From contig JAUYEG010000083.1 of the NCBI GenBank assembly GCA_030691505.1, positions 1 to 64,000 of the forward strand: 64,000 nt of DNA. The letters run 5' to 3'. The notes beneath the pieces were generated by a model, which searched no databases, was not told the DNA's origin, and worked only from the letters and a program-made list of their open reading frames with translations. How positions within the stretch are numbered: the stretch's first letter is position 1; each line of letters begins with the position of its first letter. The position numbers and the translations under genes were made by a program. Below are positions 41,148-49,679 of this stretch, one piece after another. This DNA comes from Bacillota bacterium (lineage in GTDB: Bacteria; Bacillota; Sulfobacillia; JAUYEG01).

Positions 41148-41196
41148 TGTCGCATGCCGAAGAAACGTGCAAATCCATGCATATGAGGTGACTGGC

Positions 41197-41757
41197 TTGT
41201 TCTTCGAAGGCAAGGGCAAGGAGTACACTGCCAAGACCGCGGGGCTCGCCGTCCAGAGGGCGCGGGAGCTGGGCATCTCGCGCATCGTCGTCGCGTCCAA
41301 CACAGGTTACACGGCCGATGAGTTTCTGTCCGCCATCGGAGACCTCAAGGACATCAAGCTCGTTGTGGTAACCCACCACGTGGGCTTTCGCGGGCCAGGC
41401 GAGCACGAGATGCCCGCCGAGGCGCGGGCCAGGCTAGCCGCGGCCGGGTGCGAGCTCTTGACCACAACGCATCTGTTTGCCAACGTCGAACGGGCGATTA
41501 CGAGCAAGTTCGGCGGGCTCTACCCGGGCGGGATTATCTCGGCGGCGCTCCGCCTGTTCGGTCAGGGAACCAAGGTCTGCCTGGAGATCGCCACCATGGC
41601 CATGGACGCCGGGCTCATCCCGGCGGGGGCCGAGGTGGTCGTTGCCGCCGGCAGCGGCAGGGGCGCGGACACCGCCCTCGTCTTGCTCCCGGCCCACGCC
41701 AAATCGTTCTTCGAAACCGAGGTGCGCGAGGTCATCTGCAAACCTCGCACCGTTTAG
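41197..41757 (+). CDS. Stand-alone pyruvate kinase C-terminal-like domain protein
   Basis: A 186-residue protein made only of the alpha/beta domain found at the C-terminus of pyruvate kinase. Motifs: KTAGLAVQRARELGISRIVV, ASNTGYTADEF, VVVTHHVGF and LPAHAKSFFETEVREVICKP. No kinase catalytic barrel is present, so it should not make pyruvate. TTG 41197 (MFFEGKGKEY) is preferred because GAGGTGA lies 6-7 bases upstream and the family normally starts at that motif. It precedes the amino-sugar cassette by 188 bases. Function of this family is unknown. Confidence 0.75.
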   Translation: MFFEGKGKEYTAKTAGLAVQRARELGISRIVVASNTGYTADEFLSAIGDLKDIKLVVVTHHVGFRGPGEHEMPAEARARLAAAGCELLTTTHLFANVERAITSKFGGLYPGGIISAALRLFGQGTKVCLEIATMAMDAGLIPAGAEVVVAAGSGRGADTALVLLPAHAKSFFETEVREVICKPRTV

Positions 41758-41945
41758 GGGTCCAAATCCGAGTGCGGTCCGCGGTCCGGACTTGACTGTT
41801 TTTGCGCAGCAGACGCCCTTGATACGCCAAAATGAGCAGATGGGCGAGAAGACCTGCTCTTTTCTGCTCAGGTTGTCGCCCGCACCCGCTCAATCGGGAA
41901 CAGGTGGCGTGGAAAACACGTGGGCGGAAGACAGGTGGTGGCGCC
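41758..41945 (+). promoter_or_regulatory. Leader of the amino-sugar cassette with competing hairpins
   Basis: This 188-base gap has no confident sigma-A promoter. TGAGCAG (41833-41839) can pair with CTGCTC (41854-41859, followed by TTTT) or with CTGCTCA (41864-41870). GGGCGA (41842-41847) can pair with TCGCCC (41876-41881), which would disrupt the first option. The layout resembles an attenuator but no ligand-binding domain was recognised. Confidence 0.35.
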
Positions 41946-44102
41946 ATGGCAGCCTCGTCCTGCGTTACCTGCGGTCTAGACAGACTGCTCGAGGACCCGC
42001 GGCGGTGGCTCAGGGGACGGCGTTTTGGCCTGGTGACCAACCGGGCGGCCCGGGGTAGCTGCGGCACCCCGGGTTTCATGCTGCTCAGGCAGAGATGCGG
42101 CCGCCAACTGGCGGCCGTCTTTGGACCTGAGCACGGCCTGGACGCGAACGTCGAGGACGGGCAGCCCGTAGCGGACGCCCATGGGGGTACCGGAGCCAAC
42201 GTGCCGCCTGTCTATTCGCTCTACGAGACGGGACGGCGCCGTCCCACGCCCGAGATGATGGAAGGCCTTGACCTGCTCGCTGTGGATCTGCAGGATATCG
42301 GTGTCCGCTACTACACTTACGTGAGCACCATGCTTGAGTGCATGCGCGCCGCGGCGGCGGCCGGCATACCGCTTATGCTCCTCGACCGCCCCAACCCCCT
42401 CGGCGGGCGGCGCGTGGAGGGGCCGGGCGTCAGGGCCGGCTACATGTCGTTCGTCGCCGCCCTGGATGTTCCGGTCCGTCACGGCATGACGCTGGGAGAG
42501 CTGGCTATGCTTGCGAGAGCACAGCTTGGACTCGATGCCGCGAGCCTTGAGGTCCTGCCCATGCTCGGGTGGCGGCCCGCCCACGATTGGGCGGACACCG
42601 GGCTGATATGGTACCCGCCTTCGCCCGCCGCCGGGTCGCTCAACATGGTGCGCCTGTACCCCGGCACATGCCTGATCGAGGGGACCAACGTTTCCGAGGG
42701 CAGGGGCACGGATGCTCCGTTTGAGCTGATTGGGGCACCGTGGCTGGACGGGGACGCTTTGGCGGACTCGCTGAACCGGTTGCGCACAGGCTGCCGGGGG
42801 TGGTGGCCCACAGCTACTCCGGCCCGGTTTACGCCGCGCAGCGGCAAACACGCCGGGCAGCCCTGCGGCGGCGTCAGGCTTGAGCCCCCCCGCGCGATCG
42901 GCGCCGCAGTGGAGGCCGGGGGCGGCCCGGTTGCATTCGGCATAGCGCTTCTGGCCCTTCTCCGGCGCACCGGCGGCGGCCGTTTTGCCTGGCGCGGGGC
43001 GGCCGGGGCCGAGGGACAGGGGGACCGCTGCTGGCTTGATGTCCTGATGGGTGGTCCGGAAACACGGGCCGCGCTTGACGATGGCGTGCCTTGGGCAGAC
43101 ATCGCGGACAGCTGGCATGCTCAAGAGGAGAGGCATCGCGAGCGCTCCGCGGGCTCTCTGCTCTACCGGCAACCGGATGGGTCGCGCTTTTTTGTAGCGG
43201 CAGTGTCCCGCGCGCAGCTTGATCTGATGTCGCCGCTCGAGGTGGCGCAGTACCTGGTTGCGGGGGCGGGCCGGGCCGTCGCCGCCGTCGAGGAAAGCGT
43301 GCCGCAGATTGCCCGGGCAATTAAGCTTGCCGCCGGGCGCCTCGCGGCCGGCGGGCGCATGATCTATGCCGGCGCAGGCACCAGCGGTCGCCTGGGAGTG
43401 CTCGACGCGAGCGAGTGCGAGCCGACGTTCGGGGTCGCCCCGGGGCGGGTGCTCGCGCTGATTGCCGGGGGCCCCGGCGCCTTCGCGAGTTCCCGTGAGG
43501 GCGCGGAGGACGATGCGGCGGCTGCGGTTGCTGACCTGGAGCGGGTCGCCTGCAGCGGCAACGATGTGGTTGTCGGAATCGCCGCCAGCGGCAGCACCCC
43601 GTACACGCTGGCCGCCTTGCGGGAGGCGGCGCGGCGCGGAGCGGCGCGCGTCGCCGTCGTGGGCCGGAGCGGCAGCCCGCTGGCCGAGGCGGCTGACGTG
43701 GCCGTTGAGGTGCTGACTGGAGAGGAGCCCCTGCGGGGGTCGACCAGGCTGCTTGCCGGCACCGCCCACAAAGTCGTGCTCAACGCGCTCAGCACCGGAG
43801 TGTTCGCTTACCTGGGGCTTGTCTACGGCGACCGGATGGTGGGGGTTCAGGTCACCAATGCGAAGCTCAGGGCCAGGGCGGAGGCCTTGATCGCCGAAAT
43901 GGCCGGGGTCTCGCACGCGCGAGCCGCGGAGTCTCTTGAGCTGGCCCGTGCCGTCGACCCCAGGCTGGCGGTGCGGCTGGCGATACTTTCGCTCAGGCAG
44001 CGTTGTTCCGTGACCGAGGCGCTGGCCCGTCTTGCCGCCAGCGCGGAGTCGCTCCGTCGCGCGCTTGACGCCGCCGGGGACGCCTGCCGCCGGGCCGAAT
44101 AG
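41946..44102 (+). CDS. Fusion of NamZ exo-N-acetylmuramidase (DUF1343) and MurQ etherase
   Basis: One continuous 718-residue frame joins two enzymes. Residues ~10-405 are a full DUF1343/NamZ domain (FGLVTNRAA, VFGPEHGLDANVEDGQPV, VRYYTYVSTM, LLDRPNPLGGRRVEGPGV, LYPGTCLIEGTNVSEGRG), which frees terminal MurNAc from peptidoglycan saccharides. Residues ~425-718 are MurQ, which cleaves MurNAc-6-P to GlcNAc-6-P and D-lactate: GAGTSGRLGVLDASE, catalytic-type E490 (ASEC) and E521 (EGAED), the same 31-residue spacing as E83/E114 of E. coli MurQ. The linker is short, and the usual N-terminal MurQ stretch is partly replaced. No signal peptide is present. ATG 41946 follows AGGTGGTGG. Confidence 0.9.
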   Translation: MAASSCVTCGLDRLLEDPRRWLRGRRFGLVTNRAARGSCGTPGFMLLRQRCGRQLAAVFGPEHGLDANVEDGQPVADAHGGTGANVPPVYSLYETGRRRPTPEMMEGLDLLAVDLQDIGVRYYTYVSTMLECMRAAAAAGIPLMLLDRPNPLGGRRVEGPGVRAGYMSFVAALDVPVRHGMTLGELAMLARAQLGLDAASLEVLPMLGWRPAHDWADTGLIWYPPSPAAGSLNMVRLYPGTCLIEGTNVSEGRGTDAPFELIGAPWLDGDALADSLNRLRTGCRGWWPTATPARFTPRSGKHAGQPCGGVRLEPPRAIGAAVEAGGGPVAFGIALLALLRRTGGGRFAWRGAAGAEGQGDRCWLDVLMGGPETRAALDDGVPWADIADSWHAQEERHRERSAGSLLYRQPDGSRFFVAAVSRAQLDLMSPLEVAQYLVAGAGRAVAAVEESVPQIARAIKLAAGRLAAGGRMIYAGAGTSGRLGVLDASECEPTFGVAPGRVLALIAGGPGAFASSREGAEDDAAAAVADLERVACSGNDVVVGIAASGSTPYTLAALREAARRGAARVAVVGRSGSPLAEAADVAVEVLTGEEPLRGSTRLLAGTAHKVVLNALSTGVFAYLGLVYGDRMVGVQVTNAKLRARAEALIAEMAGVSHARAAESLELARAVDPRLAVRLAILSLRQRCSVTEALARLAASAESLRRALDAAGDACRRAE

Positions 44103-44112
44103 GAGACGCGGC

Positions 44113-45744
44113 ATGGAGGCCTTCGCGAACGGCTGCAGCCCGGGCGATCCCATCGGGCTCGTGATGATCGGTTTCGGCGGCAGCGAACCAACCCCGGAGC
44201 TTGAGGCGTTGATCCGGCAAGGTCTGGCCGGCGTCATCCTCTTTGCCCGCAACCTTGTCGATGCAGCCCAGACGGCGGAGCTGACCGCATCGCTGCAGGC
44301 GTGCGCCGTCGAGGCGGGCCACCCGCCGCTTCTGATCTGCACGGACCAGGAGGGGGGCCGTGTACGGCGGTTGCGCCGGGGCCTCACGGCGTTTCCCTCG
44401 GCGATGGCCCTCGGGGCGGCCGGGGATCCGGATCAGGTCTATGGCCTCAGCAGCGCGGTAGCACGCGAGCTTTTGTCCGTCGGGATCAACCTGAACCTCG
44501 CGCCGTGCGCGGACGTCAACTCAGACCCGCGCAACCCGGTGATCGGCACGAGGTCATATGGCGGAGACCCCTTCGCGGTGGGGCGAATGGTCGCCGCCGC
44601 GGTCCGCGGGTACCAGGACGGAGGCGTCCTGGCCTGCGCCAAGCACTTCCCCGGCCATGGGCACACCGATCTGGATTCCCATCTGACCCTTCCGGTCATC
44701 GATCGCGGGCTGGACGAGTTACGGCGGAGGGAGCTGGTTCCATTCGCGGCAGCCGTGTCCGCGGGCGCCGCCGCGGTCATGTCCGCACATATCGTCGTGC
44801 CCGAGCTCGGCGGCGACGTGCCCGCAACGTTGAGCCCGCGGCTGCTTACCGGGCTGCTGCGTGGCGAGCTCGGCCATGACGGACTGATCCTCACCGACTG
44901 CATGGAGATGGCCGCGGTCAGGAGCTTTGGGGCCGGCGAGGCGAGTACACGTGCGGTCGCCGCGGGTGCTGATCTGGTACTCTGGTCGCACACACCTCTG
45001 CTCCAGCTGGAGGCGATCTCAGCGCTTCGAGCCGCCGCCGGTGGTTTCGCGCTCCCCCCGGGCCTGGTCACCGACAGGCTTGGCCGTGTACGGCGGGCGC
45101 GCCTTGGCCTCGTCAGCCGCGCCAAGGCGGCTGAGCCTGCGGAGATCCGCTCCCGTGCGGAGGCGTTTCTTGGGGGATCCGGGTCAGGGGTGCTGGAGCG
45201 ATCCCAACGGCTGGCGCTCGCGGCAGTCACCCGGGTGGGAGGATGGCCTGAGGGGGCGGCGGGGTGCATCGCATTGCCGCGCGAGCGTTCGGTCTTGCTC
45301 ATCGACCTCACCGGGCTGAGCGGGACTCCCGAGGAGCCAGCACCAGGCCTCCACCTGGCCGCGCAACTCTGTCGACGTGGTTTTGCCGTCCGGCTCGCCG
45401 GAAACGTTAATGCCCGTGCGTCGGAGAGGGCCGGTGCCGGCCACGCCAGCGGTTCGTTGCAGCAGGTCTTGCCGTCCGGCGACGCAAGCATCGTCTGCCT
45501 GACCCACGATGCCTGCCTAAAGCCGGACCAGGCCGTCGCCTACAGGACGGTCAGGTCGTCCTGCCCGGGCCTCATCTCCGTCGCGACCGGGTTGCCGTAC
45601 GATCTTGCCTGGCTCGCCGAAGCCGCGTCAGGGCTGGGGCTCTGCGCGTACGATCCGGGGCCGGCATGCATGGAGGCCTGTGCCGGGATTCTGTGCGGCG
45701 AAAGCCCCCCGCGCGGCAGCCTACCTGTGAAACTCGACGGGTAG
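44113..45744 (+). CDS. nagZ: Beta-N-acetylhexosaminidase NagZ (GH3)
   Basis: A 543-residue glycoside hydrolase family 3 enzyme that removes GlcNAc from muropeptide saccharides. The catalytic site is intact: KHFPGHGHTD (residues 177-186) with the acid/base His-Asp dyad, and nucleophile D262 in LILTDCMEM. TDQEGGRVRRL and GTRSYGGDP are substrate-pocket motifs. Beyond residue ~350 there is a second domain as in Firmicute two-domain NagZ. Bacillus NagZ is secreted, but no signal peptide is present here, suggesting cytosolic action. ATG 44113 lies seven bases behind AGGAG and ten bases after the fusion gene. Confidence 0.93.
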   Translation: MEAFANGCSPGDPIGLVMIGFGGSEPTPELEALIRQGLAGVILFARNLVDAAQTAELTASLQACAVEAGHPPLLICTDQEGGRVRRLRRGLTAFPSAMALGAAGDPDQVYGLSSAVARELLSVGINLNLAPCADVNSDPRNPVIGTRSYGGDPFAVGRMVAAAVRGYQDGGVLACAKHFPGHGHTDLDSHLTLPVIDRGLDELRRRELVPFAAAVSAGAAAVMSAHIVVPELGGDVPATLSPRLLTGLLRGELGHDGLILTDCMEMAAVRSFGAGEASTRAVAAGADLVLWSHTPLLQLEAISALRAAAGGFALPPGLVTDRLGRVRRARLGLVSRAKAAEPAEIRSRAEAFLGGSGSGVLERSQRLALAAVTRVGGWPEGAAGCIALPRERSVLLIDLTGLSGTPEEPAPGLHLAAQLCRRGFAVRLAGNVNARASERAGAGHASGSLQQVLPSGDASIVCLTHDACLKPDQAVAYRTVRSSCPGLISVATGLPYDLAWLAEAASGLGLCAYDPGPACMEACAGILCGESPPRGSLPVKLDG

Positions 45745-45830
45745 TATACGGAGGAGTAGCCGCGCCGTGGGCGGAACCCCTCCAGGCCGGGCTCGTTTCC
45801 GGCTCAGATCCATGAAGGGTGAGTGAGTGC

Positions 45831-46316
45831 ATGAGCTGTGTTGAGGAGCGGGTGCGGGAGGCCCGCGAGGAAGCCAAGCGGCTTCACGTGCTGGGCTATA
45901 ACTGCGCGGAAGCTGTTTTGGGCGGAACTGTGCGCGCGGCGCGCGGGGAGCAACCGCCCCTGCGGATCGCGACCGGTTTTGGCGGGGGGCTCGGCAGGAC
46001 GGGGAGCGTGTGCGGGGCCGTGACCGGCGCGATCGCGGCTTTTGGCTGGCTGCGGGGGCGGACGAGCCCGGACGACAAGGAAACCTACGCCCGGTGCGCC
46101 ACGCTGGTGCGCCGGTTCCTCGCCGATTTCGCCGCGGCCCACGGGACGATGACCTGCAGCGAGCTGACGGGCTACGACCTCCGGGACCCCGAAGTGCTGC
46201 CGGCATTCGCGGCCGATGCGGCGAGACGGGAGAAGTGCGCACGGTTCATCGATACCGCCGCCTCGCTGGCGGCCCGGGCTGTCCTTGCTGATGGGAAGGG
46301 TGGGGAGTCGCGGTGA
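45831..46316 (+). CDS. C_GCAxxG_C_C family redox-type protein
   Basis: A 161-residue protein of the cysteine-rich C_GCAxxG_C_C family. Visible cysteines lie in SCVEE, GYNCAEAVLGG, GSVCGAVTGAIAAFG, YARCATL, MTCSEL and REKCARF; the second and third carry the family signature. Members are thought to bind a metal or redox centre but have no assigned reaction. ATG 45831 is preferred because AAGGGTGAG is correctly spaced before it. It overlaps the start of the dehydrogenase gene by four bases, so the pair is co-translated. Confidence 0.8.
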   Translation: MSCVEERVREAREEAKRLHVLGYNCAEAVLGGTVRAARGEQPPLRIATGFGGGLGRTGSVCGAVTGAIAAFGWLRGRTSPDDKETYARCATLVRRFLADFAAAHGTMTCSELTGYDLRDPEVLPAFAADAARREKCARFIDTAASLAARAVLADGKGGESR

Positions 46317-47275
46317 GCGCCTCGAAGCCGCCCGTGCTTGTTCACCACCCGCAGGACACGCTGGAGTACGCGAGGTTGGCCTCGGCTGCCCTGCCCGGCG
46401 TGGACCTCGTTCCGTGCCTCTCCGGCGCCGAAATGGAGGCGCTGATGCCCGAGGTTGAGATCATTTTCGGCTGGCGCATTCCGGGTGCATGTTTCCGCCT
46501 TGCCCGCCGGCTGCAGTGGCTTCAGGGCATGGGTGCGGGGGTCGAGGATCTGCTGGCCAACAAGGACCTGCCGGCCCGGGTGAAGATCACGCGGGTGACG
46601 GGCATTTTCGGCCCGTGGATCGCCGAGTACACGCTCGCCCATGCTCTCGCCTGGACGCAGGACATCCGGCGTTCGCTGGGTAGCCAGGCCGTCCGGAAGT
46701 GGGACAAGTACCTCGTGCGCAAACTGCGCGGCCTGCGGCTTGGAGTGGCCGGCCTGGGCAGCGTGGGCCAGGAGGTGGCGCGCCTGGCCGCCGCGGCGGG
46801 CCTGCGGGTCACCGGGTTTGACCTGGAACCGCGCCGGCTGCCCGGCGGCGGTGCGGCCTATTGCGGGGACAGGGGCAGCCCATCGCTTCTCAGGTTTCTG
46901 TCTGAGCTCGACATCCTCTCGGTCAACCTCCCGTTGACTCGGGACACGGACGGGATGTTCGGGGCCGCCGAGTTGGCCGCCCTTCCTGCCGGCGCTCTGG
47001 TCGTCAACACCGCGCGGGGCAGGATCATCGACCAGCATGCCCTGATCGAGGCGCTCAGGTCAGGCCATCTCGGCGGTGCGGCTCTGGACGTGTTTGAAAC
47101 CGAGCCCCTTCCTGAGGACAGCCCGCTGTGGAGCTTTCCGCAGGTTGCGGTTACGGCGCATATCTCCGGGCCAAGCACCCCGGCTGAGGTTGTGCCCATT
47201 TTCCTCGACAACTACCGGCGCTACCACGCGGGCGAGCCGCTCGCCGGCCTGGTCGACCGGGTGAGGGGATTTTAG
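46313..47275 (+). CDS. D-2-hydroxyacid dehydrogenase
   Basis: A 320-residue NAD(P)-dependent dehydrogenase of the D-isomer 2-hydroxyacid family. The nucleotide-binding loop is GLGSVG (147-152), followed by an acidic residue in VTGFD that suggests NAD preference. Catalytic residues are R235 (NTARGRII), E264 (VFETEPL) and H283 (TAHISG). Substrates in the family include D-lactate, glycerate, glyoxylate and phosphoglycerate. D-lactate is attractive because the neighbouring MurQ domain releases it, but this is inferred. GTG 46313 overlaps the previous stop; anmK begins on the last base. Confidence 0.85.
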   Translation: MSASKPPVLVHHPQDTLEYARLASAALPGVDLVPCLSGAEMEALMPEVEIIFGWRIPGACFRLARRLQWLQGMGAGVEDLLANKDLPARVKITRVTGIFGPWIAEYTLAHALAWTQDIRRSLGSQAVRKWDKYLVRKLRGLRLGVAGLGSVGQEVARLAAAAGLRVTGFDLEPRRLPGGGAAYCGDRGSPSLLRFLSELDILSVNLPLTRDTDGMFGAAELAALPAGALVVNTARGRIIDQHALIEALRSGHLGGAALDVFETEPLPEDSPLWSFPQVAVTAHISGPSTPAEVVPIFLDNYRRYHAGEPLAGLVDRVRGF

Positions 47276-48498
47276 TGCTGGTCATCGGGCTGATCTCCGG
47301 CACCTCAGCCGACGGGGTGGACGCCGCGCTGGTGGAGATCGGTGAGAGGCCCGGCGGCCGCCTAAGTATCGGCCTGCGTCACTGGCTTACGGCGCCGTAT
47401 CCTGCCGAGCTGCGTCAGGCCGTCCTCGCCGCCTGCCGGGAGTGCGGCGCGGGCACGGCGCAGCTGTCCCGGCTCAATTTCGTGATCGGCGAGGAGTTTG
47501 CGCGTGCGGCCCGCATGGTTGCCGGCGCGGCCGGCGTGCCGCTTTCTTCCGTCGACCTCATCGGCTCGCACGGCCAGACCGTCTGGCACGACCCGCTGCC
47601 GGCGGCGTCGGGCATGTGGCGGCGGAGCTCGACGCTGCAACTGGGCCAACCGCAGGTGATCGTCGAGCGGACGGCGGTAACGGTTGTCGCCGACTTCCGG
47701 CCGCGCGACATGGCCGCGGGCGGCCAAGGCGCTCCGCTGGTCCCGCTTGTCGACTTCCTGACGCTCGGCGATCCTGGCGTGGGGCGCATCGCCCTCAACC
47801 TCGGCGGTATCGCCAACGTGACGGTGCTGCCCGCGGGATGCTGCGCCGCCGATGTGCGCGGTTTCGACACCGGCCCGGCAAATATGGTGATCGACGCCCT
47901 TGCCGAAACCACATCGGGCGGCGCCCTGACCTACGACCGCGACGGGCTGCTGGCAGCGGCCGGCCGGGTCGACGAGGGTTGGCTCGGAGAACTCGCGGAG
48001 CACCCCTATTTCGGCATCGCCCCGCCGAAATCGACCGGTCGCGAGGTTTTCGGGCCCCACTATGCCCGCGAATGCCTTGCCGCGGGGAGGGCCAGGGGTC
48101 TCGGGGATACCGACATCATCGCCACCGTCACCGCCCACACCGCCGACACCGTGGTGCGGGCAATTCGGGACCATGTCCGGCCGCACGGGGCGATGGCCGA
48201 GGTGGTGGTTTCGGGCGGGGGCGCGCTCAACCCGTTCCTTCTTGGCCAGCTGGAAACCAGGCTTGAGGGCCTGCGGATGACCGTGCGCCCGTCCGACGAC
48301 TTCGGCCTGCCGGTCGAGGGCAAGGAGGCGGTGGCCTTCGCGGTTCTTGCCTACCTGACGCTGCACGGGCGGCCGGGCAACGTGCCCGGGGTCACCGGGG
48401 CCGAACGTCCGGTTGTGCTGGGGACCATCGTGCCCGGCGACAACTTTGCTTCCCTATTCCGACGGGTGGGCCCCGGCCCGGACGGCGGCGGGCCGTGA
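47275..48498 (+). CDS. anmK: Anhydro-N-acetylmuramic acid kinase
   Basis: A 407-residue kinase of the ASKHA fold that hydrates and phosphorylates 1,6-anhydroMurNAc to MurNAc-6-P, the MurQ substrate. Motifs are the N-terminal phosphate loop GLISGTSADGVDAALVEI, LIGSHGQTVWH, TVVADFRPRDMAAGGQGAPL, ALNLGGIANVTVLPAG, FDTGPANMVID and VVSGGGALNPFLL. It starts with GTG one base inside the previous stop codon. Its presence implies that anhydro-muropeptides from lytic transglycosylases are also recycled. Confidence 0.95.
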   Translation: MLVIGLISGTSADGVDAALVEIGERPGGRLSIGLRHWLTAPYPAELRQAVLAACRECGAGTAQLSRLNFVIGEEFARAARMVAGAAGVPLSSVDLIGSHGQTVWHDPLPAASGMWRRSSTLQLGQPQVIVERTAVTVVADFRPRDMAAGGQGAPLVPLVDFLTLGDPGVGRIALNLGGIANVTVLPAGCCAADVRGFDTGPANMVIDALAETTSGGALTYDRDGLLAAAGRVDEGWLGELAEHPYFGIAPPKSTGREVFGPHYARECLAAGRARGLGDTDIIATVTAHTADTVVRAIRDHVRPHGAMAEVVVSGGGALNPFLLGQLETRLEGLRMTVRPSDDFGLPVEGKEAVAFAVLAYLTLHGRPGNVPGVTGAERPVVLGTIVPGDNFASLFRRVGPGPDGGGP

Positions 48499-49679
48499 CG
48501 CCGGATCCCCGGGCCGCGTCAGGCAGATGCCTGGTGCTCGCCGACCTCATGCGCGGAGGCGAGCGGGTTCCCGGCACCGTTGTGGTCGAGGACGGGGTGA
48601 TTGTCGAGCTCTGTTTCGGCCGCAGGCTGTCCGAGCCCTGGGCGCGGACGTATGATCTCCCCGGCGCACTGGTGCTTGCCGGGCTGATCGACCTGCACGT
48701 CCACGGGGGCGGGGGTTTCGCGGCGGCGGACGGCCGTGAACACCTGCGCAGGCTTGGAGCCTGGCTCGCCGCGCGAGGAGTCACGGGTTTCCTCGCGTCG
48801 GTGCCGTCGCGGCCGCAAGACGAGCTTTGTTCGGCGTGCCGCGCCGTGGCGGAGGCGGCGTCCGCCGGCGACCCGCCCAACCTGCTGGGCCTGCACCTGG
48901 AGGGGCCGTTCCTCAGCCCCGAGCGGGCCGGGTCTCTTCCCGCCGGGAGCTTTCGCCAGCCCTCGCCCCTGGCCTACCGCTCGCTGCGGGCCGTGTGCGG
49001 TTCGTGGCTAAAGGTGCTAACCATCGCCCCGGAGCTGCCGGGCGCCGGTGAGGTGATTGCCGCGTGCCGCCGGGACGGGGTCGTGGCGGCGATGGGCCAT
49101 ACAAACGCCGGTTTCGACGAGGCGCGGGCGGGCCTGTCGTCCGGAATGGCCCATGTTACCCATCTCTTCAACGCAATGAGCCCGTTTCATCACCGCGCGC
49201 CTGGGGCGGTGGGGGCGGCGCTGACCTCCGAAACCGCCACGGCCGAGCTGATTCTCGACGGTGAGCACGTGCACCCAGCGGCAATGGCCCTGGCCAGGAG
49301 CGCAATGGGGGCTTCGCGGCTCATTGTGGTGAGCGATGCCCTGCCCGTGGCGGGCACTGCGCGCGAGTCGTCGCTGTGGGAGGGACGGGAGGTCTTCCGG
49401 CGCGGCCCGCGTCTTGTGTTCGCGGACGGCACGCTGGCCGGCAGCGCCGTGTCCCTCAACGAGGCTCTGGCGACGGCGATCGGGTGGGGGCTTGAGCCGG
49501 CTGAGGCCGTGGCGATGGCGTCGGCCAACCCGGCGGCGGTTCTTGGACTGGAGGGCCGCAAGGGCCGGCTTGTGCCGGGACAGGACGCGGACCTCGTCGT
49601 CATGGACAAAGACTGGCGGGCGCTCTTGACCCTTGTCCGCGGCCGCCGGGTGTGGCCCGACCAGCGCTGGCAAGACTAG
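48495..49679 (+). CDS. nagA: N-acetylglucosamine-6-phosphate deacetylase
   Basis: A 394-residue amidohydrolase that turns GlcNAc-6-P into GlcN-6-P and acetate. Metal and substrate motifs in order: LIDLHVHGGGG, LHLEGPFLSP, AAMGHTNAGFDEA, HVTHLFNAMSPFHHR, and the catalytic Asp in LIVVSDALPVAG. Length is normal. GTG 48495 overlaps the anmK stop. It completes the route from MurNAc-6-P to GlcN-6-P; a NagB deaminase is not seen in this window. Confidence 0.95.
   Translation: MTPDPRAASGRCLVLADLMRGGERVPGTVVVEDGVIVELCFGRRLSEPWARTYDLPGALVLAGLIDLHVHGGGGFAAADGREHLRRLGAWLAARGVTGFLASVPSRPQDELCSACRAVAEAASAGDPPNLLGLHLEGPFLSPERAGSLPAGSFRQPSPLAYRSLRAVCGSWLKVLTIAPELPGAGEVIAACRRDGVVAAMGHTNAGFDEARAGLSSGMAHVTHLFNAMSPFHHRAPGAVGAALTSETATAELILDGEHVHPAAMALARSAMGASRLIVVSDALPVAGTARESSLWEGREVFRRGPRLVFADGTLAGSAVSLNEALATAIGWGLEPAEAVAMASANPAAVLGLEGRKGRLVPGQDADLVVMDKDWRALLTLVRGRRVWPDQRWQD

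Follow-up and report, generated by a model that had tools for sequence, protein, structure and literature searches.

A NamZ-MurQ fusion gene within a MurNAc-salvage gene cluster of a Sulfobacillia bacterium

The fusion of two genes speaks strongly for a shared pathway of their proteins, and the NamZ of Bacillus is known as a secreted enzyme. A gene that joins NamZ to the etherase MurQ, found in the window (the whole 64,000-nucleotide stretch of DNA analysed here), raises the question of whether such a fusion is real, how rare it is, and what a protein of this kind could do. Both enzymes and their pathway are already known, and it is the NamZ-MurQ architecture that is new. In the B. subtilis cluster murQ-murR-murP-amiE-nagZ-ybbC, the genes are separate (PMC5061867).

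The Fusion Gene and Its NamZ Half

The gene (41946..44102, forward strand) was analysed with Pfam, NCBIfam, and AlphaFold2. As proposed in the initial annotation, it translates in a single frame into 718 residues without a stop, with both domains complete, and the family matches of the NamZ and MurQ halves each showed E values below 1e-35, far beyond chance. The NamZ half includes a NamZ_N domain at residues 28-229 (42027..42632, +; PF07075, E 1.6e-61, 207.7 bits over a curated cut-off of 26.9) and a NamZ_C domain at residues 237-407 (42654..43166, +; PF20732, E 1.7e-36, 126.7 bits over a cut-off of 25), whereas the MurQ domain spans residues 422-709 (43209..44072, +; PRK05441, E 6.9e-91, 304.4 bits over a subfamily cut-off of 168). 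An AlphaFold2 monomer model from a 51-row alignment (mean pLDDT 91.7, pTM 0.70) presented both domains at high confidence, with a disordered joint at residues 412-421 (pLDDT below 50). Solved structures that Foldseek retrieved for it included 4k05, a DUF1343 protein (TM 0.86 on the target), and 4lzj_A, the MurQ of H. influenzae (TM 0.95, rmsd 1.4).

The absence of a signal peptide was confirmed: neither the start at 41946 nor the earlier in-frame ATG at 41832 yields one, with no hydrophobic N-terminal stretch under either choice. Judging from its sequence, the fusion protein is probably located in the cytosol, and it would differ in this, as well as in being fused to MurQ, from the NamZ of Bacillus subtilis. 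Many NamZ proteins of relatives encoded next to murQ also seem to lack a signal peptide, which is not a defining feature of the NamZ (GH171/DUF1343) family. On the minus strand, an 803 aa ORF (41976-44387) overlaps the fusion gene and was judged a by-product of the high G+C content.

Out of 63 positions conserved in the NamZ half (for all deviation counts, those identical in at least 90% of homologues), 60 are kept and the three deviations are ordinary. The family-invariant motifs PEHG, LDRPNP, and EGxxxSxGRG are present, and E62 in GPEHG (42129..42131, +), invariant in the alignment of 49/49 NamZ homologues, is the presumed active-site residue. This half is predicted to be an exo-beta-N-acetylmuramidase, and it resembles B. 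subtilis NamZ (YbbC, DUF1343) and T. forsythia NamZ1 and NamZ2 in its NamZ_N/NamZ_C families, in the PEHG and LDRPNP motifs, and in its clustering with nagZ and murQ.

A Divergent MurQ Half

The catalytic glutamates assigned to the MurQ half were found where they had been proposed: in an ungapped phmmer alignment, E490 (in VLDASECEPTF; 43413..43415, +) and E521 (in SREGAEDDAAA; 43506..43508, +), separated by 31 positions, align with 4lzj, the H. influenzae structure, at chain positions 89 and 120. The loops GAGTSGR, ECxPTFG, GSTR, and NxKL are also retained, and the SIS loops are intact, as is the Glu pair. The half is thereby like the MurQ proteins of E. coli, H. influenzae (4lzj), and Y. enterocolitica (4s12) in fold (TM 0.93-0.95), Glu pair, and SIS loops; it departs from them in forming the C-terminal part of a fusion protein, in the loss of the N-terminal TE motif, and in changes at K603, Q608, N629, and L630.

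The idea of an ordinary MurQ half did not hold, as it turned out to be unusually divergent. It passes a second subfamily cut-off (PRK12570, 272 bits against 255) and falls under the TIGR00274 equivalog cut-off (261.9 vs. 302 bits), which the ordinary MurQs of the relatives tested pass with 314-411 bits. Changes affect 11 of its 65 conserved positions, the highest number among 29 MurQs (the others have at most 7). The TE motif is present in 27-28 of the 28 MurQs of relatives, and the branch of this half is the longest in the MurQ tree (1.33). Given this divergence, the greatest among the 29, together with the lost TE motif and the score below TIGR00274, its etherase activity is likely rather than proven.

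GKRP and MurR are relatives that bind sugar phosphates. The main rival explanation is a MurQ half with no or altered activity, acting as a scaffold, as a MurNAc-6-phosphate sensor, or on a different substrate, while the NamZ half is active; the long branch, the lost motif, the score under the equivalog cut-off, and the leading number of changes all speak for it. We nevertheless regard it as unlikely, given the intact E490, E521, and SIS loops and a model of this half that fits the MurQ fold at TM 0.95. In addition, the window genome (2.88 Mb in 177 contigs, rated 95.9% complete) contains the fusion as its sole MurQ match, and yet it carries AnmK and NagA, which require a MurQ. The half is taken here as an active but fast-evolving MurQ.

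The Gene Cluster and Its Relatives

The claim of a real fusion within a MurNAc-salvage gene cluster was supported by its neighbours, all on the forward strand. Upstream lies a gene for a pyruvate-kinase C-terminal-domain-like protein (41167..41757; PF02887), an upstream neighbour also in G043 and G056, two genomes belonging to this class. Downstream, the fusion gene is followed by a NagZ-like GH3 beta-N-acetylhexosaminidase (44113..45744; PRK05337, 211.4 bits over a cut-off of 207; PF00933, 2.1e-77), in which a signal peptide was not seen, a C_GCAxxG_C_C family protein (45819..46316; PF09719), a D-2-hydroxyacid dehydrogenase kept in G043 and G056 (46313..47275; PF02826, 6.2e-47), the anhydro-MurNAc kinase AnmK (47275..48498; PF03702, 1.4e-101; PRK09585.3-2, 439.7 bits), and the GlcNAc-6-phosphate deacetylase NagA (48495..49679; TIGR00221, 296.1 bits over a cut-off of 225.65). 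On the 3' side of NagA, a PHP protein and then an ordinary rapZ-cofD/yvcK-whiA trio are encoded.

The gene clusters of G043 and G056 match that of the window in order. In G043, the nearest syntenic relative, the order is PK_C-like protein, a cupin-type protein resembling glucose-6-phosphate isomerase, NamZ, MurQ, beta-lactamase-family protein, GH3, dehydrogenase, and AnmK; no recognisable NamZ was present at the cluster of G056. The namZ and murQ genes of G043 are separate and overlap by 4 nt (GTGA), with AAGGAG just ahead of the murQ start. As G043 keeps the cluster order with separate genes, the gene in the window is the same namZ/murQ pair joined, and the fusion probably originated from the joining of two adjacent, co-directional genes.

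No kinase for free MurNAc is encoded within the cluster of the fusion. Kinases of the BadF/BcrAD type sit on other contigs of the genome, and the one closest to the MurNAc/GlcNAc kinases of relatives (C89:6620-7528) is surrounded by unrelated genes. In families f6, f40, and f41, a kinase gene sits between namZ and murQ. MurK of T. forsythia belongs to the BadF-type kinase family PF01869 (PMC5790795), and the order NamZ, kinase, MurQ is supported by the BadF-type (PF01869) kinases that relatives encode between or beside namZ and murQ.

A second NamZ is encoded in the window genome (contig C9, L002:808-2367, -). It is probably a secreted form, as it has a signal peptide, with a copper-amine-oxidase-N domain (Cu_amine_oxidN1) at the C-terminus.

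Two further observations concern the cluster. A stand-alone pyruvate-kinase C-terminal-domain protein heads it in three genomes, with about 62% identity. The dehydrogenase gene of the window (46313-47275) has counterparts in G043 and G056, in each case kept close to murQ and anmK.

The Joint between the Two Halves

The joint, delimited by sequence and pLDDT, comprises the 17 residues 408-424 (43167..43217, +) and contains a run of six T (43188..43193, +) that the initial annotation did not mention. Since a one-base indel in this run would make or break the fusion, we considered an assembly or sequencing artefact in which two genes overlapping in different frames, as namZ and murQ do over 4 nt in G043, had been merged. 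With five T, NamZ would terminate as ..SRFL followed by a stop, and with seven, the ATG at 43177 would begin MurQ in frame. We hold such an error to be very unlikely. No Shine-Dalgarno-like motif was found ahead of any in-frame start in the joint, nor ahead of ATG 43177 or GTG 43203, whereas G043 retains its AAGGAG; the frames of other checked window genes remain open across runs of six or more bases; and a NamZ-MurQ fusion free of this doubt exists in a genome of another phylum, described below.

Distribution of the NamZ-MurQ Architecture

Scanning of 154 genomes of the class revealed no match spanning both halves in the 153 others, and the same was true of an even sample of about 390-399 genomes of the phylum. 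No NamZ-MurQ fusion was found in 297 genomes of Acidobacteriota. In contrast to the uniqueness suggested at first, a sample of Chloroflexota, to which the Anaerolineae record at locus L115 belongs, contained another NamZ-MurQ fusion in 1 of its 301 genomes, G592. This protein (L205:3150-5231) has 694 residues in one frame and matches the window fusion with 2.6e-138 and 43% identity; a PIG-L deacetylase gene lies directly upstream. Both fusions share the domain order, the position of the joint, the single frame, and the lack of a signal peptide; that of G592 differs in a longer joint, which keeps a MurQ N-terminal motif, and in its canonical MurQ half, which clears TIGR00274 with 342 bits. As this second fusion contains no internal stop, the NamZ-MurQ architecture is real rather than artefactual, yet rare. 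The two fusions do not group together in trees of NamZ and of MurQ, although AU tests gave no rejection of a single origin (p 0.368 and 0.238).

A second sample of Chloroflexota (n = 400), searched with the G592 protein as a query, revealed no further uninterrupted fusion. Genomes G697, G1014, and G1230 were rejected as carriers, as stop codons separate namZ and murQ: in G697 and G1230, both genes share a frame split by stop codons and a BadF-like kinase comes next, and the acidobacteriotal G1014 presents a beta-lactamase-NamZ fusion and then murQ. The long matches at L115 and L116 (query residues 1-457 and 7-467) were also discarded, being alignment run-ons. In an alignment-based scan, MurQ was found in the same frame in none of the best 80 of at least 582 NamZ loci, and a scan of contigs with the single fusion protein as a query gave no match. 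Finally, that no NamZ-MurQ fusion has been described agrees with the literature searched, where none is reported; this absence is weak evidence, given that the search had incomplete coverage, without protein-architecture databases.

A Possible Role in MurNAc Salvage

The reading that we prefer, with a probability of about 0.68, is that of a bifunctional cytosolic MurNAc-salvage enzyme, with a separate kinase acting between its two steps. The NamZ half would act on imported wall saccharides and release the MurNAc at their non-reducing end, a separate kinase, probably of the BadF/MurK type and encoded elsewhere, would convert it into MurNAc-6-phosphate, and the MurQ half would split off D-lactate and leave GlcNAc-6-phosphate, to be deacetylated by the NagA of the cluster. 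AnmK would supply MurQ through the anhydro branch, NagZ would remove GlcNAc, and a possible task of the D-2-hydroxyacid dehydrogenase is to oxidise the D-lactate that MurQ sets free. The enzymatic activities, the kinase identity, the localisation, and the import route of this pathway are those that we infer from the genes described above.

As NamZ frees MurNAc, the kinase phosphorylates it, and MurQ follows, the fusion would join the first and the third step, which are not consecutive. A hand-over from NamZ to MurQ via the kinase is possible; the flexible joint of the model gave no hint of a fixed channel between the two sites. The main gain of the fusion could be the presence of both activities in equal amounts and at the same location, on a flexible joint.

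Consecutive steps would be easier to explain, and they would result if the NamZ half acted on putative 6-phosphorylated muramyl saccharides, feeding MurQ directly. This is how MupG works, the 6-phospho-N-acetylmuramidase of Staphylococcus aureus (PMC6262408), which is also an exo-muramidase acting just ahead of MurQ. In two genomes of the same class, a single frame encodes MupG together with MurQ (L105:1695-3821, -, in G144; L108:3952-6204, -, in G041), a fusion of which no description was found in the literature searched. The lack of a kinase for free MurNAc in the cluster would fit such a substrate as well. MupG differs from the NamZ of the window in its family (PF19200/PF05913) and in requiring a phosphorylated substrate. 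Against this reading, nearly all conserved NamZ positions are retained in the window protein, and relatives have a kinase gene directly 3' of namZ. A phosphorylated substrate for the NamZ half is thus quite unlikely, and release of free MurNAc remains the preferred reading.

Other Fusions of MurQ and NamZ

At least five partners are fused to MurQ in the class: NamZ, MupG, a BadF-type kinase, an AmiE-like protein of beta-lactamase fold, and a degenerate GH3/NagZ-like domain. Fusions of a BadF/BcrAD-type kinase with MurQ in one frame (L107:2421-4571, +, in G001; L106:1494-3401, -, in G013) join consecutive steps of MurNAc breakdown. It is possible, if doubtful, that MurQ is a recurrent fusion hub in the class and that NamZ-MurQ is a working assembly, recruiting the kinase or using a phosphorylated substrate, and not a neutral join.

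The NamZ-MurQ fusion ties NamZ, a family characterised only recently, to the breakdown of MurNAc in the cytosol. In addition, the series of MurQ fusions provides candidates for testing complexes or channelling in peptidoglycan recycling and points to uncharacterised partners as likely members of this pathway.

NamZ is also joined to another recycling enzyme in the fusion of a DD-peptidase/beta-lactamase (PF00144) with DUF1343, an architecture listed in 2008 (PMC2605481) and also found in L202; its partner differs in being AmiE-like and not MurQ. MurQ followed by an AmiE-like beta-lactamase-family (PF00144) domain was found in families f6, f40, and f41, within single frames some 700 aa long, at loci L048, L051, L052, L087, L025, L047, and L088, the assignment being based on Pfam for L048 and on frame length and sequence for the rest. 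The frames of this length in f6 had been candidates for kinase-MurQ fusions and were rejected as such. Finally, families f7, f27, and f38 combine a degenerate GH3/NagZ-like domain (hhalign probability 98.4, E 9.7e-15) with a divergent MurQ (L109:2571-5114, L097, L099, and L100-L104), in which the SGRTP motif is altered, mostly to xHGxTPY.
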